20,177 bases of DNA from a virus, in IMG/VR virus record IMGVR_UViG_3300035670_005106, positions 1-20,177 of that record; one strand, written 5' to 3'. How positions within the stretch are numbered: the stretch's first letter is position 1; each line of letters begins with the position of its first letter. A program made the position numbers and the translations under genes. Below the pieces are notes generated by a model that had not been told where the DNA came from, searched no databases, and saw only the letters and a list, made by a program, of their open reading frames with translations. Of the stretch, positions 3,140 to 15,669 are shown piece by piece.

Positions 3140-3888
3140 ATGTCAAAGCAGCTTAGATTGAGGTCTTTAGTTATTATGTTCACAGTTTTTCCATTGACAG
3201 GAGCAATATTGAATGGTGATTTTTTTGTTGACGGTATTGCAAATTGCATTTCAAATGTAAACTGATAATTGCCACCTCCTTTGTATTGTACACGGGCACG
3301 ATATGTTGCTTTTGCTGAAGTGCCAAACATTGGAACACCTTTCAATTTCAATGGATTTTTTTTACCCATGAGATAGAAACCATGTGTTCCTACGTTTACA
3401 TAGTACGTGGCTTTTTTATTATAATATTGTTCAATTTTAGTTGCCGATATTTCTCCACGAATGTCTTTGAATGTATCACGATCACGTTCATATCTTTGTT
3501 GTGGTGATAGTTTACCGGCAGTAGCTTCCCATTTCAAATCTTTTTCACGTTTATAGGGAACTTCTTTCCACTCTTTTTTAATGATATCAAACAATCCAAC
3601 TTCTTCTGCAAGTTCTTTGATGAACATTTTTTCTTCATCATCTTTTTTGATATCACCAAACTTCCATGGACTTTTTTTATCTGATGAATCATACTTCAAA
3701 ACAAGGGAACCAGCAGATGCAGCCGTGATTTTTAATTCACAACCAGCTTTGATTTTTTTATACTCTAACATCAAGTCTGGCTGATCATGACCTGCACCAG
3801 CTGGAACAAAACTTTTAGGAACTAACCCCATTGGTTTCAAAACTTTTGCAGCATTAATTTCGTACTGAAATCCTTGTTGAGCAGCCAT
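3136..3888 (-). CDS. PD-(D/E)XK nuclease-like protein
   Basis: 250 aa. The N-terminal third has the pattern of PD-(D/E)XK nucleases: a helix with E10 (GFQYEINAAKVL), then PD at 37-38 (HDQPDLML), then E51-L-K53 after a beta turn (KAGCELKI). That gives PD-x12-ExK on consecutive strands. The rest is basic and includes RYERDRDTFKDIRGE and a C-terminal beta-rich region (KATYRARVQYKGGGNYQFTFEMQF) that could bind nucleic acid. The start at 3888 has a clear GGAG Shine-Dalgarno. It is the first gene after the TATAAATA late promoter at 3910-3917, and its stop overlaps the ligase-like gene as ATGA. A nuclease made late next to a ligase-like protein suggests DNA packaging, repair or host-defence functions. 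The motif reading is good, the biological role unknown. Confidence 0.68.
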   Translation of the reverse strand: MAAQQGFQYEINAAKVLKPMGLVPKSFVPAGAGHDQPDLMLEYKKIKAGCELKITAASAGSLVLKYDSSDKKSPWKFGDIKKDDEEKMFIKELAEEVGLFDIIKKEWKEVPYKREKDLKWEATAGKLSPQQRYERDRDTFKDIRGEISATKIEQYYNKKATYYVNVGTHGFYLMGKKNPLKLKGVPMFGTSAKATYRARVQYKGGGNYQFTFEMQFAIPSTKKSPFNIAPVNGKTVNIITKDLNLSCFDI

Positions 3889-3909
3889 AAATTCTCCAAA
3901 TTATTAGAG

Positions 3910-3917
3910 TATTTATA
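3910..3917 (-). promoter_or_regulatory. T4-type late promoter upstream of the nuclease/ligase-like operon
   Basis: On the minus strand the octamer TATAAATA exactly matches the T4 late promoter consensus recognised by gp55 (with gp33 and the gp45 clamp). It overlaps the gp41 stop. The start of transcription would be about 5-7 nt downstream, leaving a short leader that contains the GGAG Shine-Dalgarno of the nuclease gene at 3888. It is the only exact match I found on the minus strand by eye. It marks the change from early replication genes to a late operon. Confidence 0.7.
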
Positions 3918-5319
3918 CTTTGAAGCCTCCGAACTTATTCTTTGTTCCAGATAATCTCTCACGCTCACCAAATGTATTCAGAGGTTTATCATCAACTTGA
4001 CCGGTATCTACCAAGTCATCCTGTGCAGTCTGTTCTACATCATACAGCTTCATCTTTGCCCTGTCAATACCTACCACAAATCTTTTATAATAACTTGGAT
4101 CATTATACCGATTCTTGAGTTGCTTAATCATTAACTGATTCAATTGTTCCAACTCTTCGGTACTTATCAAAGCAAACATAAAGTCGGCTGTAGCTGGAAG
4201 ACCAAACGATTCTGATGTATCTTCCAAGCCTGGATCCGAGCTGGTGAAGCCGCTTCGGGTTGTCTGTGTAGCTGACATGATGGGAACGTCAAACTCTACG
4301 GCCAGACCCCGGAGTTCTTCGGCAATTGCCTTAATATAAGAATAACTATTTACGTTAGCACCAGGCTTGATTCTGGCACTTGCACAAATGTTAAGATAGT
4401 CAATAAAGATGATATCAGGTTTGAAACTCTTTTTAAGTTGCAATTCATTTAACAATGCACGAAAATGAAGTGCTGAAGATGATGCTGTCGGATATTCTTT
4501 GATAATAAGCTTACCCTGAGTCTTTACCCTCAGAGCAGAAAACTTACGATCATAGTCCTGCTTGGAAATAGAATTTAAGTCTGCAATATCAATGTTCAAT
4601 AGATTGGCATCAATACGTTCTGCAATACGTTCTTCTGCCATTTCCATTGTGATATACAAAACATTCAGACCTTGTGATAAACAAGAACCTGCAACGTGAC
4701 ACATGAACAAAGATTTACCAACACCAGTGCCAGCAAGAGCAATGTTCAAAGTCTTCTTAGGCAAACCACCTTTTGTGATCTTGTTGAATAGATCAAGGTC
4801 AAAAGGAATTTTAGATTCGTGGCGATGATAGAAGTCATATCGTGACGATGAATCATCAATGTAATCGTGACCAACTGATGCATCAAAAGATACACCAAGA
4901 GCATCACTCAACAGTTTTGGAATTGAACCCTTGTCTTCTTTCTTTGTCTTGTCATCAAGAATCTTAACAGATTGCATGATCGCATTATACAATGCACGAT
5001 CTTGACAAAACTTCTCTGTTTGATTGATAAGCCAATCAACATCTGTCGGCTCATCTTTGTCAGCATTGATCTCACGAATCATCTGAATAGATTCGCTGAC
5101 TTGATCTTCTGAAAGTTTTTTAGACTCTGTAAAATTAATTACAAGGGATTCGTATGTAGGAAGGTGTTTATAGTGTTGTATATGATTGTTGATCTCATCA
5201 AATACAATTTTTTCTGTTGTATCGGTGAAGTATTCTGTTTTAATAAAGGGTAAGATTTTTCTTGCGAAATCTTCATTAAATATCAAATTCTTCAGAATTG
5301 TAGTTTCTAGTCTTTTCAT
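3913..5319 (-). CDS. gp41: Replicative DNA helicase, T4 gp41 type (DnaB family)
   Basis: 468 aa, matching T4 gp41 (475 aa). It is a hexameric 5'-3' helicase that unwinds DNA at the fork and works with primase. The N-terminal domain begins MKRLETTILKNLIFNEDF, parallel to T4 gp41. The RecA-like motor has Walker A AGTGVGKS (196-203), the H1a acidic residue in YITMEM (around 226), Walker B IIFIDYLN (D307), and a DnaB-type arginine/Gln segment (SATQTTRSG). The start overlaps the upstream small gene by 44 nt. That gene contains a TTGACA-N17-TACAAT promoter, so the helicase can be transcribed on its own. The C-terminus ends RERLSGTKNKFGGFKV. Confidence 0.97.
   Translation of the reverse strand: MKRLETTILKNLIFNEDFARKILPFIKTEYFTDTTEKIVFDEINNHIQHYKHLPTYESLVINFTESKKLSEDQVSESIQMIREINADKDEPTDVDWLINQTEKFCQDRALYNAIMQSVKILDDKTKKEDKGSIPKLLSDALGVSFDASVGHDYIDDSSSRYDFYHRHESKIPFDLDLFNKITKGGLPKKTLNIALAGTGVGKSLFMCHVAGSCLSQGLNVLYITMEMAEERIAERIDANLLNIDIADLNSISKQDYDRKFSALRVKTQGKLIIKEYPTASSSALHFRALLNELQLKKSFKPDIIFIDYLNICASARIKPGANVNSYSYIKAIAEELRGLAVEFDVPIMSATQTTRSGFTSSDPGLEDTSESFGLPATADFMFALISTEELEQLNQLMIKQLKNRYNDPSYYKRFVVGIDRAKMKLYDVEQTAQDDLVDTGQVDDKPLNTFGERERLSGTKNKFGGFKV
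4039..4067 (-). promoter_or_regulatory. Sigma70-like promoter within 3' end of gp41
   Basis: The minus strand reads TTGACA (4067-4062), 17 bp, then TATGAT (4044-4039). -35 is perfect and -10 is 5/6. It points to the nuclease gene 150 nt downstream, so that operon could have both an early and a late promoter. It lies in coding sequence and is inferred from the motif alone. Confidence 0.4.
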
Positions 5320-12709: not shown

Positions 12710-13114
12710 TTATTCGGCTCTGCCTTTTTTACCTATATTATATTTAGCAATAAGTTCCCAATCGTCTTTTTCTTTGAAAGAAATAATTTTAATTTGATGA
12801 ATGGGTGCCATATTTTCTCTTAGTATATCATAGTTTACAATTTTTAGTAAACCCCATTCTTCAAGTAAATTGGCAATTGCGTTACGCCTTTGTATATCGT
12901 TTTCGGTAATAGTTGAGAGTTTGCCGTCTAGTGCAAATAATTCTTTAAAATGAACTATGTAATACTTGCCCTGCTTGTGTAGAATATGGCAAGACTGATA
13001 TAATACCTTTTCTTTTCTACTTGATACGCCAATACGTGTTAAAGTTTCACGTACTTTTAAGAAATCATCCTCGTGCTTTAGGGTGACTTCAACAAACTTA
13101 GATAGATCAACCAT
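12710..13114 (-). CDS. regA: RegA translational repressor
   Basis: 134 aa (T4 RegA is 122). The core is clearly homologous: DFLKVRETLTRIGVSSRKEKVLYQSCHIL, then KYYIVHFKELFALDG and RRNAIANLLEEWGLLKIV, ending IKIISFKEKDDWELIAKYNIGKK. RegA binds AU-rich ribosome-binding sites of early mRNAs, including its own and those of gp44, gp45 and gp62, and shuts off their translation. The start is preceded by AGGAAAATGAT, an A/U-rich ribosome site that could be an autoregulatory target. The upstream gp62-tail fragment ends one base before the regA start (TGATATG), so the two are coupled. This is the expected ancestral neighbour of gp62. Confidence 0.97.
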   Translation of the reverse strand: MVDLSKFVEVTLKHEDDFLKVRETLTRIGVSSRKEKVLYQSCHILHKQGKYYIVHFKELFALDGKLSTITENDIQRRNAIANLLEEWGLLKIVNYDILRENMAPIHQIKIISFKEKDDWELIAKYNIGKKGRAE

Positions 13115-13115
13115 A

Positions 13116-13331
13116 TCATTTTCCTAATCCACCTTTATAGGTTTCTTCTTTTAGTTTTTGGATTTGTTCTTTGCTAAGTAGGCGCAAGGCTTCTCTTGCT
13201 TTGGAGTCGGACAGGCCAAAGGCCAGCTTGATACATTCCAAATCATCGTTTTTTTCTGCTTTTGCCCACTTCGCAAATGGTCTTTTCATAGACCTTACGG
13301 TATTTAGTCTTTCAATGTTTTCATGAACCAT
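13116..13331 (-). CDS. Duplicated C-terminal fragment of clamp loader gp62
   Basis: 71 aa. From residue 11 on it is a near copy of the last 60 residues of gp62: VRSMKRPFAKWAKAEKN and SKAREALRLLSKEQIQ are identical in both. DNA identity is about 90% over 161 bp (13141-13301 versus 13726-13886), without gaps, and many differences are silent. The first ten residues (MVHENIERLN) overlap the end of the HNH gene and have no gp62 counterpart. There is no good Shine-Dalgarno at 13331; an internal ATG at 13289 has TAAGG just upstream and may be the real start. It is probably the displaced original 3' end of gp62, since it still abuts regA. It may be a non-functional remnant or a free C-terminal peptide; the frame is intact. 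Confidence 0.72.
   Translation of the reverse strand: MVHENIERLNTVRSMKRPFAKWAKAEKNDDLECIKLAFGLSDSKAREALRLLSKEQIQKLKEETYKGGLGK
13141..13301 (-). repeat. gp62 3' repeat, copy A (in fragment before regA)
   Basis: 161 bp that align without gaps to 13726-13886, offset 585 bp. By eye there are about 16 mismatches, about 90% identity, with one perfect run of more than 40 bases. It ends three bases from the HNH stop codon. Confidence 0.9.
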
Positions 13332-13666
13332 AGTAATTTTTCTATATCGTCAACACTACAATCGTTTTTCATTTTATTTGCTTTGAAAGATATGACTTGT
13401 ATATTTCCCTTCACATATCCTTTTTTGGGATCTATCCTATCTAATGATGGAGATTTATCTGATGGTCCTTTTCCTTTTCCTACTTCAAATTTGAAGCCAA
13501 AAACTGGACAAACATCAGGTATGTCAATGTCTTCTTTCAAAATATTGAACTCTACACCATTTTTTTCTGATCTTTTTTTTGCTCTCCACCACATACATTT
13601 TACGTAATATGTAGATATGTCTTTATATTCTTTTCTTTCTCTTTCATTAGTATTAGCGTTTCTCAT
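13304..13666 (-). CDS. HNH family homing endonuclease-like protein
   Basis: 120 aa from the ATG at 13666, chosen over the longer ORF start (13720, inside gp62) because a GGAGAA Shine-Dalgarno lies at the right distance. The core follows phage HNH nucleases of the DRIDP type: DVCPVFGFKFEVGKG (C53), SPSLDRIDPKKGYVKGN (D76-R-I-D, G83-Y-V, G87-N), then ISFKANKMKND (N97, K98). These supply the ββα-metal fold. The first cysteine is kept, while a second CxxC Cys is replaced by Phe. It lies exactly between two copies of the gp62 3' end, stopping two bases short of one of them, as a free-standing mobile gene would. Confidence 0.82.
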   Translation of the reverse strand: MRNANTNERERKEYKDISTYYVKCMWWRAKKRSEKNGVEFNILKEDIDIPDVCPVFGFKFEVGKGKGPSDKSPSLDRIDPKKGYVKGNIQVISFKANKMKNDCSVDDIEKLLWFMKTLKD

Positions 13667-13694
13667 ATTATTCTCCAGTGAGTATTTGCTAATA

Positions 13695-14087
13695 CTATTT
13701 AGTATTTTTGATTCCTCCAATTTGTGTTTCTTCTTTTAGTTGTTGGATTTGTTCTTTGCTAAGTAGGCGCAAGGCTTCTCTTGCTTTAGAATTAGACAGA
13801 CTAAAGATTAATTTGATACATTCCAAATCTTCATTTTTTTCTGCTTTTGCCCACTTCGCAAACGGTCTTTTCATAGACCTTACCGTGTAAAGCAAAAAGT
13901 CATTTTGAAGCTTTTTGTCCAGATGGTGCCTGCGGTTCATCTCATTTGCGTACAGAACACAATCTTTATGCTGAGACAATGCACGATTGGTCAGAAAGGG
14001 TTGATATTCCTTCTCAGTCAGATCATCAACAATCAGTTGCCTCTTGGACTGAAGAATGGATTTGACATACTCAAATGGATCGCTCAT
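13695..14087 (-). CDS. gp62: Clamp loader small subunit, T4 gp62 type
   Basis: 130 aa, as in the shorter gp62 of aquatic T4-like phages (T4 gp62 is 187). gp62 joins four gp44 subunits to form the clamp loader that opens gp45. The N-terminus MSDPFEYVKSILQSKRQLI and the central YANEMNRRHHLDKKLQNDF, then the basic C-terminal region with RPFAKWAKAEK and SKAREALRLLSKEQIQ, fit gp62. The start overlaps the methyltransferase stop as ATGA, with a GGAGT Shine-Dalgarno. The last 60 residues are duplicated downstream at 13116-13331. This copy ends TQIGGIKNTK while the other ends TYKGGLGK, so the tail may have been replaced when the HNH gene inserted. Confidence 0.88.
   Translation of the reverse strand: MSDPFEYVKSILQSKRQLIVDDLTEKEYQPFLTNRALSQHKDCVLYANEMNRRHHLDKKLQNDFLLYTVRSMKRPFAKWAKAEKNEDLECIKLIFSLSNSKAREALRLLSKEQIQQLKEETQIGGIKNTK
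13696..13702 (-). promoter_or_regulatory. Possible late promoter of HNH gene (CTAAATA)
   Basis: The minus strand reads ACTAAATAG at the gp62 stop, 6/8 to the T4 late consensus and an exact CTAAATA, a form seen in late promoters of T4-like cyanophages. It lies about 30 nt before the HNH ATG (13666). It is within a small palindrome (AATACTAAATAGTATT, 13691-13706), so chance is possible. Confidence 0.3.
13726..13886 (-). repeat. gp62 3' repeat, copy B (in complete gp62)
   Basis: Second copy of the 161-bp direct repeat, inside the full-length gp62. The repeat starts at the codons for TVRSM and runs to near the C-terminus. The HNH gene lies between the two copies, so the unit HNH + one copy is 585 bp. 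Confidence 0.9.
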
Positions 14088-15097
14088 TTGGACTCCATAA
14101 TTTTGTAAACTTCAGTTGTGTCTGCGCTTTTTAAATTTTTAGATGTGTCTTGTAGTGCTTGTCGTTTGCTACTCAAAACGGAAAAGACTTCAGATAAGAA
14201 ATATTGTTTATCTTTAAGTATTCTTTCAACATCATTTTTCATATCTCTTCTACCTACTTTACCAACATTCCAACATGTAACACCACCATCATTTAAATAA
14301 TCTAAAGAATTTACGATTAGTGGTTCTAGAAAAGAATTAATCCATCCATCATAATCAGAAATGTTCGTTATTGATTGTGTGTCTTCTTTACAATACACTT
14401 CTACGTCAAAATATGGTGGACTAGTCAGAATCATATCAACTTTAGGTAAGCTGTAAGCATTCATCTTTAAAGCATCGTCACAAATCAATGTTACTTTATC
14501 TTGAATGTTTAAAAATTTAACTATCTCCATCAAACCCGTATATGTCTCCGTGTTCGGTTCAAATGCAATATAGTTTGCACCGCTTGAAACAACACCCAAC
14601 ATTCTACCACCCCAACCAGCGCAAGGATCAAAAACTATTTTAGGTTTGTGATGTATGCATAATAGTTTTGCCATTTGTGGTCTGTACATTGTATTTTTAG
14701 TAAGACCGCAACAAAAATAAATTCCTCTTTTAATTTCTGATAAGTATGGCGTACTATGGCTTTTTCTGTTCCATCTTAGTATTTTTTCCAAATTGTCAGC
14801 AGTCCAACTGTTAGAAAAACTTTTACCTTTATTGTTTTCAATGTCATAAAAATTTGGAAAATAATGTTCACAAAGTTTCATACCAATTCTTGATGTTGAA
14901 TTTATGTAATCATCTTTTGAGTTCCACTTACATAAATTATTCCAATCAGTTCTCAATTGTTGATCAGAATATTTTGATATAAAACTAATATTTTCTAACT
15001 GAGAAGCAAGTGTTGCGACAACAGATTCAAATTCAATATCATTTAACTTTCGTGTGGTATTTCTAATATTCAAAAAATTATGGATATTTACATCCAT
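14084..15097 (-). CDS. DNA methyltransferase (TSPPY type), likely restriction-modification partner
   Basis: 337 aa. Motif I is VFDPCAGWGGRMLG (156-168), an acidic motif II residue is E180 (YIAFEPNT), and motif III is CDDAL (about 207-211). The catalytic motif IV is TSPPY (225-229), which marks an N4-cytosine or N6-adenine DNA methyltransferase. The N-terminal 140 residues include a region ending MYRPQMAKLLC that probably contains target recognition; the family is not recognised beyond this. The preceding gene (15088-15669) is a PD-(D/E)XK-like nuclease that overlaps by 10 nt. The stop overlaps gp62 as ATGA. The region is visibly AT-richer than its replication neighbours, consistent with transfer. 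Confidence 0.85.
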   Translation of the reverse strand: MDVNIHNFLNIRNTTRKLNDIEFESVVATLASQLENISFISKYSDQQLRTDWNNLCKWNSKDDYINSTSRIGMKLCEHYFPNFYDIENNKGKSFSNSWTADNLEKILRWNRKSHSTPYLSEIKRGIYFCCGLTKNTMYRPQMAKLLCIHHKPKIVFDPCAGWGGRMLGVVSSGANYIAFEPNTETYTGLMEIVKFLNIQDKVTLICDDALKMNAYSLPKVDMILTSPPYFDVEVYCKEDTQSITNISDYDGWINSFLEPLIVNSLDYLNDGGVTCWNVGKVGRRDMKNDVERILKDKQYFLSEVFSVLSSKRQALQDTSKNLKSADTTEVYKIMESK

Positions 15098-15669
15098 AGT
15101 TCAACCCCTATCTTTTTTATACCATCTTTCATCCACACACTCATTTCTTGTAAAATTTTAGCGGTTTCTAGCTTAGAATAATCACTGGAAAACATGTAGT
15201 CATCATTTTCACTATTTTTACCTCCTTGTTGATGCTTGAAAACGCAATTGTTTGAGTTTATATTTTTAACAAAATCTTCTTTGCATATCCAATTTATACG
15301 AAAATGATCATTTGGATTTACGCCAAGTAATATTAATCTCTCCCAATCTTTATGACATGCAAGATGATTAAACGTAAAATAGTCTGTTTTCATACTTAAA
15401 CTGAACTTGATTTCAGTTTTGTATCCATCAATTATTCTATCATGCTCCCTATTTCTTCTTGGATAAACTTCACTACCTTTTTTTTGCATTATCTTAGACA
15501 CTAAAATTTCACCAAAAGCTCCCATTTGTGTGTTTGAGAGTTTTAAGTATCCTTCATATTGCGTCCCAATCCAAGGATCATCAATATCAATCCTTGATTT
15601 CACGTAATTATGAAGAACACCGTCTTCAAAAAATTCATTTAAAGACACAATATTTTGATCGTGTTTCAT
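15088..15669 (-). CDS. PD-(D/E)XK-like restriction endonuclease candidate
   Basis: 193 aa. MGAFGEILVSKIMQKKG (E54 on a helix), then REHDRIID (D77, D81) and TEIKFS (E86-I-K88) give the E...D-x-ExK layout of the PD-(D/E)XK fold, like many type II restriction enzymes. The protein is small, basic in the centre and soluble. It lies between gp44 (ATGA overlap) and a TSPPY DNA methyltransferase (10-nt overlap). That gene order and coupling is what makes a restriction endonuclease the best reading. A lone homing-type nuclease protected by the neighbouring methylase would be an alternative. The recognition site cannot be derived from the sequence. Confidence 0.72.
   Translation of the reverse strand: MKHDQNIVSLNEFFEDGVLHNYVKSRIDIDDPWIGTQYEGYLKLSNTQMGAFGEILVSKIMQKKGSEVYPRRNREHDRIIDGYKTEIKFSLSMKTDYFTFNHLACHKDWERLILLGVNPNDHFRINWICKEDFVKNINSNNCVFKHQQGGKNSENDDYMFSSDYSKLETAKILQEMSVWMKDGIKKIGVELWM

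Follow-up and report, generated by a model that had tools for sequence, protein, structure and literature searches.

The DNA analysed here (hereafter the window) is a stretch of 20,177 nt from a virus, positions 1 to 20,177 of IMG/VR record IMGVR_UViG_3300035670_005106. Its minus strand carries, in this order, gp44 (16595–15666), two inserted ORFs (15669–14084), gp62, a nuclease gene, a second gp62 3' end and regA (Table 1). The original prediction had recognized a complete gp62, an HNH endonuclease gene and a second gp62 3' end abutting regA, and all of these are confirmed by ORF, Pfam and PHROG evidence. The two gp62 3' ends form an ungapped direct repeat of 174 nt with 87% identity and a spacing of 585, essentially as first described (161 bp at about 90%, unit of 585 bp), while the tails are 88.1% identical in nt and 89.3% in aa over codons 66–121. 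The nuclease stop codon had been placed two bases away from the downstream copy; the TAA (13304–13306) in fact falls within the native gp62 copy, which provides this codon. The start of the nuclease gene is likely the ATG at 13666 rather than the TTG of the long ORF.

Table 1. Features of the gp62 locus in the window
Feature	Coordinates	Strand	Remarks
gp62, hybrid clamp-loader small subunit	13695-14087	minus	130 aa; Pfam Phage_clamp_A 6.6e-11; PHROG 225 2.8e-39
Native (resident) 5' part of the hybrid gene, gp62 codons 1-65	13893..14087	minus	90.8% nt identity to L001 (empty); change in identity pattern at codon 65/66
585-bp insert comprising a replacement gp62 3' end and the nuclease gene	13308..13892	minus	both breakpoints correspond to one point of the empty allele (L001/L006)
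Replacement gp62 tail, codons 66-130 and stop, ending ..GGIKNTK*	13695..13892	minus	target half-site recoded; 87.5% identity to the nearest empty allele
ACTAAATA, late-promoter-like motif ahead of the nuclease gene	13696..13703	minus	TAAATA found here in 11/11 elements checked
HNH-like nuclease gene, 120 aa, ATG start, SD GGAG	13304..13666	minus	stop codon from native gp62 sequence
Displaced native gp62 3' end, codons 66-stop	13116..13307	minus	97.0% nt identity to L001; its stop is separated from the regA start by one base
71-aa ORF from an in-frame ATG 24 nt upstream of the displaced tail	13331-13116	minus	
Translational repressor gene regA, the ancestral neighbour downstream of gp62	12710..13114	minus	Pfam Translat_reg 1.4e-46

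The source of the window is a T4-like phage without a near isolate, since the nearest isolate DNA polymerases are only ~51% identical and, at the DNA level, the region is matched best by regA of Pelagibacter phage Mosig. The ORFs between gp44 and gp62 (14084–15669, minus strand) form a putative type II restriction-modification pair (PADLOC: REase_II 4e-14, MTase_II 5e-9). Relatives of this pair are found at the same gp44–gp62 place in two other contigs (L075 and L039) and further contigs have different spacers, so that the gp44–gp62 junction looks like an insertion hotspot.

We compared the locus with 249 records containing gp62 and regA, a number in which some contigs were re-fetched and are thus counted twice. 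In 213 of the 249 records regA lies at most 6 nt from the gp62 stop or overlaps it (empty alleles), while 36 are occupied or altered. As for a free-standing homing endonuclease element, the insertion site is fixed, empty alleles exist, and the left and right breakpoints coincide; on the empty allele the insertion point lies between GA[TC]TTTTT[AG] and [CA]TAAATAC, that is between gp62 codons 65 and 66. Relatives lacking the HNH gene, which the original prediction proposed to align with both copies and to search for the HNH cut site, do exist, and their tails match the downstream copy. Compared with L001, its nearest empty relative, the window shows 90.8% identity in codons 1–65, and its downstream tail (97.0%) is closer to L001 than its upstream tail (87.5%). 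The corresponding values are 99.0%, 100% and 65.5% for L082 versus empty L193, 97.9%, 99.4% and 68.5% for L128 versus L237, 92.8%, 98.8% and 76.8% for L120 versus L282, and 87.7%, 99.4% and 72.0% for L083 versus L243. Together with the coinciding breakpoints, these pairwise identities mark, at the sequence level, the downstream gp62 copy as native and displaced, and the upstream tail and nuclease gene as the insert.

The insertion point adjoins a strongly conserved sequence, with zero synonymous variation at codons 66–67 (CTAAAT) in 75 dereplicated empty alleles. Between upstream and native tails, synonymous changes are found in 48 of 70 codons at positions 66–73 versus 24 of 92 at positions 74–85 (P = 9e-8), a count that uses aa-identical codons only and treats related tails as independent, though they are not fully so. 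The insert splits the conserved site, its left half being joined to the recoded codons and its right half to the nuclease gene. Such a split and recoded site would prevent cutting of the occupied allele.

The nuclease matches PHROG 3322 (endonuclease, 1.3e-31) and PHROG 1035 (endonuclease VII, 3.7e-18), and no nuclease match was obtained in Pfam or NCBIfam scans or in a profile search of PDB sequences. Its AlphaFold2 model (pLDDT 86) displays a beta hairpin and a helix (strands 73–77 and 89–93, helix 94–98), and of all structures matched it resembles PacI, an HNH enzyme, most closely (prob 0.99, E 0.016, Z 6.4); the weaker matches include other HNH nucleases. The conserved motif, S-L-D-R-I-D..G-Y..G-N..A-N, is without histidine. 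Among 56 relatives, D76 and N97 are each present in 56/56, position 77 is R or K and position 79 is mostly D; the full DHHRN set of the EndoVII type is thus not found in this family, no histidine occurring at position 77 or 79 in the 56 relatives. The protein appears to be an HNH-like nuclease with predicted catalysis, its motif lacking histidine and its sequence belonging to no Pfam family. The search turned up no close relative of the nuclease in an isolate phage, the best match reaching 46%.

We also ran flank-repeat tests on ~150 loci of other HNH relatives, and a gene-tail repeat was absent at most of them. Three candidates were rejected as gene-tail cases: the repeats in L182 correspond to a pair of group I introns within a ribonucleotide reductase gene, those in L383 are tandem hli-like genes with their own starts, and L167 holds a pair of HNH paralogues. 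Of the L182 introns (3227–4581), both in one ribonucleotide reductase gene, the first is followed by the nuclease relative and the second by a GIY-YIG-like ORF. The position of this relative beside a group I intron is a homing context. HNH copies at other loci without any host-gene tail had been named at the outset as an observation that would count against an element carrying a gene end; relatives do occur in this way, one of them beside the group I intron, and their occurrence suits a family of homing nucleases with several strategies.

The arrangement of gp62, nuclease, gp62 tail from codon 66 and regA was found in 20 further IMG/VR contigs (L081–L087, L116, L118–L128 and L131), which after merging of near-identical contigs represent seven lineages besides the window (L082, L083/L084, L085, L116, L118, L120 and L128). 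In these other lineages the element measures 584–717 bp, and its sequence is 69–80% identical between lineages. Both parts are under purifying selection, with an omega of 0.09–0.15 for the nuclease and 0.08–0.17 for the replacement tail. In the L083/L084 pair, the element is 98% identical within flanks of 81% (left) and 91% (right) identity, the pattern by which we recognized horizontal spread, and dS is 0.075 in the nuclease versus 0.63 in the native tail. From these comparisons of sequence we conclude that the element has moved between backgrounds. Alternatively, the locus could be static and inherited, with a nuclease that is dead or has another role and with ordinary gp44–gp62–regA recombination accounting for its spread. 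The histidine-less motif, the missing Pfam family and the small number of carrier lineages would suit such a locus, but they have to be set against the nearly identical element in diverged flanks, the low omega of the HNH gene, the family member beside a group I intron and the precise insertion at a single site with a recoded half-site. We consider a static locus unlikely, and it is the strongest of the competing explanations.

The origin of the tails was followed in trees, as the original prediction had proposed. With all ten upstream tails included, eight fall in one cluster while those of the window (UP_W) and of L209 (UP_L209) are placed elsewhere, UP_W grouping with native tails and not with the element clade. 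Native tails are placed with empty alleles from the same phage; DN_L128 and E_L237, for instance, are joined at 100/100. In a tree without the two mosaic copies UP_W and UP_L209, the eight upstream tails form one side of a branch with 97/92 support. The 20 differences between the window tails are clustered at codons 66–68, 85–86 and 92–100, and separated by identical runs of which the two longest reach 45 and 29 nt (P = 0.007 jointly); the upstream tail is 98% identical to the native one in codons 70–83 and 101–119, versus 63–67% in codons 66–69 and 91–100. Clustered differences and long identical runs indicate that the window upstream tail is a mosaic, which arose most simply by conversion between the two tails of the window. 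In codons 74–85, the upstream tails of L083, L085 and L120 also match the native tail of the same contig unusually well.

The mosaic bears on a further explanation, a simple local duplication of the gp62 3' end with the HNH gene landing between the copies. Such a duplication was expected to leave the two tails as each other's closest relatives, and the window copy behaves so in part, with tails that are 88% identical and with UP_W among the native tails, which its mosaicism explains. The other carriers do not: their upstream tail is 61–78% identical to their own downstream tail, while the downstream tail reaches 100% identity to empties, the element tails form one clade, and the breakpoint is identical in all carrier lineages. 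Tandem duplication has occurred nearby in L229 (3460–3575), a plain 57-bp repeat of the regA 3' end without a nuclease gene, which we set aside as a candidate. AU tests, with little power on 168 columns, clearly reject simple duplication for L082 only (P 0.0025), the values for the others being 0.17–0.40. Altogether, a local duplication is very improbable; the insertion inside gp62 with a compatible donor tail, as originally put forward, is supported by the empty relatives, the tail tree and the identified empty site. The reverse polarity, in which the downstream tail arrived with the HNH gene by insertion at the gp62–regA junction and the upstream tail is native, draws on the gene order and nothing else and is hardly conceivable with downstream, not upstream, tails matching empties at 97–100% in five pairs and with a breakpoint at codon 65/66 instead of the gene end. 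A group I intron or intein interrupting gp62, brought to mind by a homing-type nuclease inside a conserved replication gene, has just as negligible a chance, given that there is no Rfam intron match in the window and that the upstream gp62 frame is complete, with its stop before the nuclease start.

The locus is, with high probability in our view, occupied by a mobile element that combines a foreign, recoded gp62 3' end with the gene of an HNH-type homing nuclease, the activity and homing being those predicted for such an enzyme. In a co-infecting phage with an empty gp62 allele, the nuclease would cut this allele at or close to the junction between ..TTTTTA and CTAAATAC.., and repair of the break would copy the replacement tail and the nuclease gene into the cut gp62. 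The replacement tail would keep the essential clamp-loader subunit whole, provided that the hybrid gp62 is functional as we presume. Immunity of the occupied allele would rest on its two junctions, where the left half-site meets recoded codons and the right half-site meets the nuclease gene. As for the displaced tail, it would stay in place for the conserved sequence that it holds ahead of regA, and it may keep translation running into regA. Expression of the nuclease would probably be late, from the TAAATA promoter-like motif.

The displaced tail holds a second conserved stretch, as codons 111–121 of the empty alleles are nearly invariant synonymously (CAAATCCAA..TAAAAGAA.AAACC). Displaced tails keep 28–33 of the 33 consensus bases of these codons and upstream tails 17–24, while the mosaic upstream copy of the window keeps 31. 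The displaced tail ends at most a few nt before regA, and an in-frame ATG lies 24 nt upstream of it, inside the nuclease gene, in 11/11 elements checked. It may serve as a regA leader or in translational coupling, which is a guess. In gp62 as a whole, codons 66–67, 78 and 111–121 have near-zero synonymous variation versus a median of 0.47 (75 empty alleles, e.g. L001:1224–1620), which points to unannotated cis-acting sequence, probably for regA.

The TAAATA motif is found directly ahead of the nuclease gene in 11/11 elements checked. The sequence TATAAATA precedes gp22 in related contigs, which makes a T4-type late promoter for the nuclease gene plausible. The AAAATACTAAATAGTATTA motif in L115 was discarded, as it occurs in an unrelated place. 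In six elements a hairpin is predicted over the TAAATA motif and the nuclease RBS (z down to -4.1), a weak signal with thin covariation that is reminiscent of the control of I-TevI (PMC2988022); folding gave no clear RBS hairpin in the window element.

A third kind of allele is found in L209, L210, L212 and L213, four contigs of the phage that also includes occupied L082 and empty L193; the flanks of L209 are 97–100% identical to this phage over most of 1.2 kb per side. All four have a replaced gp62 tail and a displaced native tail with ~25 nt between them, and the nuclease is gone. Codons 66–73 of L209 are 96% identical to the L082 element, so that L209 most likely descends from an occupied allele. 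Judging from these alleles, empty (L193), occupied (L082) and nuclease-less (L209) states coexist in one phage, which offers a small system for invasion, recoding immunity and loss.

The layout of the gp62 element equals that of mobile ORFs (mORFs) in fungal mitochondria, which carry a foreign C-terminus in Allomyces atp6 and in Glomus atp6, atp9, cox2 and nad3 (PMC3630166). Shared are the order of native 5' part, foreign 3' end, free-standing endonuclease ORF and displaced native 3' end, the hybrid gene in frame, and a displaced tail that resembles close relatives next to a foreign tail that has diverged from them, a difference that is weaker in the window with its mosaic. The fungal mORFs are mitochondrial and encode LAGLIDADG or GIY-YIG enzymes, whereas the gp62 element lies in a T4-like phage contig and encodes an HNH-like nuclease. 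What sets the gp62 element apart is that one position presents three allele states and carriers from several lineages; it also differs in that the target supplies the nuclease stop codon and in that recoding of the half-site was measured. As far as the literature could be searched, we found no phage or bacterial precedent for an element with a replacement gene end.

Among phage systems, the T4 free-standing homing endonucleases SegF, SegG and MobE occupy intergenic positions in most cases, and their cut sites are hundreds to thousands of bp distant (PMC2988022). The gp62 element has in common with them a free-standing nuclease gene in a T4-like replication region and, with several T4 homing genes, a late-promoter-like motif in front; in contrast, it is located within the gene that it targets, at the presumed site, and brings a replacement gene end along. 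Other homing genes split their host gene, namely Aeh1 mobE in nrdA, T4 mobA in gene 60 and seg43 in gene 43 (PMC2988022). These too are free-standing homing genes inside phage replication or nucleotide-metabolism genes, but they turn the host protein into two chains, while the gp62 element leaves it whole by means of the carried tail. With I-TevI and other intron homing systems (PMC2988022) it shares an insertion that separates half-sites and would protect the occupied allele, and a plausible late expression; it has no splicing element, and instead the replacement tail completes the host gene. Finally, F-CphI of cyanophage S-PM2, an EndoVII-type (DHHRN) enzyme (PMC6083498), resembles the nuclease in being a small phage nuclease with a PHROG endonuclease VII match and conserved D and N positions, but in the gp62 element the DHHRN histidines are absent and there is no pairing with a psbA intron.

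Phage homing genes are known to survive in essential genes through splicing (introns, inteins), an intergenic position or protein splitting. A carried replacement gene end would be a further route, seen so far, as far as could be searched, in fungal mitochondria only. By this route, phage lineages could exchange the 3' ends of a core replication gene through homing, and trees built on such genes would be distorted. Engineered gene drives can carry a recoded rescue copy, and the gp62 element would be a natural analogue of these.

A related nuclease (42%) was found in a Pelagibacteraceae single-cell genome (L190, 1500–2200), after a tyrosine recombinase gene ending RRYIQESNLFKNNALNKISNE. The nuclease is followed by a leftover KRYIREANIFKNNALNKIKV, which is similar to the usual end seen in 29 relatives (RRYIQEANLFKNNALNKIKI and variants). 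By its sequence layout this gene appears to follow the same design as the gp62 element, and with this one clear case generality beyond gp62 is a lead. We give even chances to the proposal of a general 'home and rescue' strategy in phages and bacteria, in which homing nucleases would invade essential or core genes while carrying recoded, cleavage-immune 3' ends; it would embrace two unrelated genes (phage gp62 and the Pelagibacter tyrosine recombinase) with related nucleases, and recoding would be kept by selection for immunity. If true, this strategy would be the natural counterpart of engineered rescue gene drives. Two further tyrosine-recombinase loci were seen, one with the element present and without the leftover tail (L191:2118–2651) and one in which an intact tyrosine recombinase is followed by a nuclease fossil (L469:360–540).

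A deeper marine case of the gp62 arrangement is found in L134, where a related nuclease (49%) follows gp62 and the downstream tail is decayed, with codons from ~86 kept. In this contig (5334–5460), ~95 bp of unrelated DNA separate the nuclease from the decayed native tail of gp62, and a second CTAAATA stands directly before that tail.
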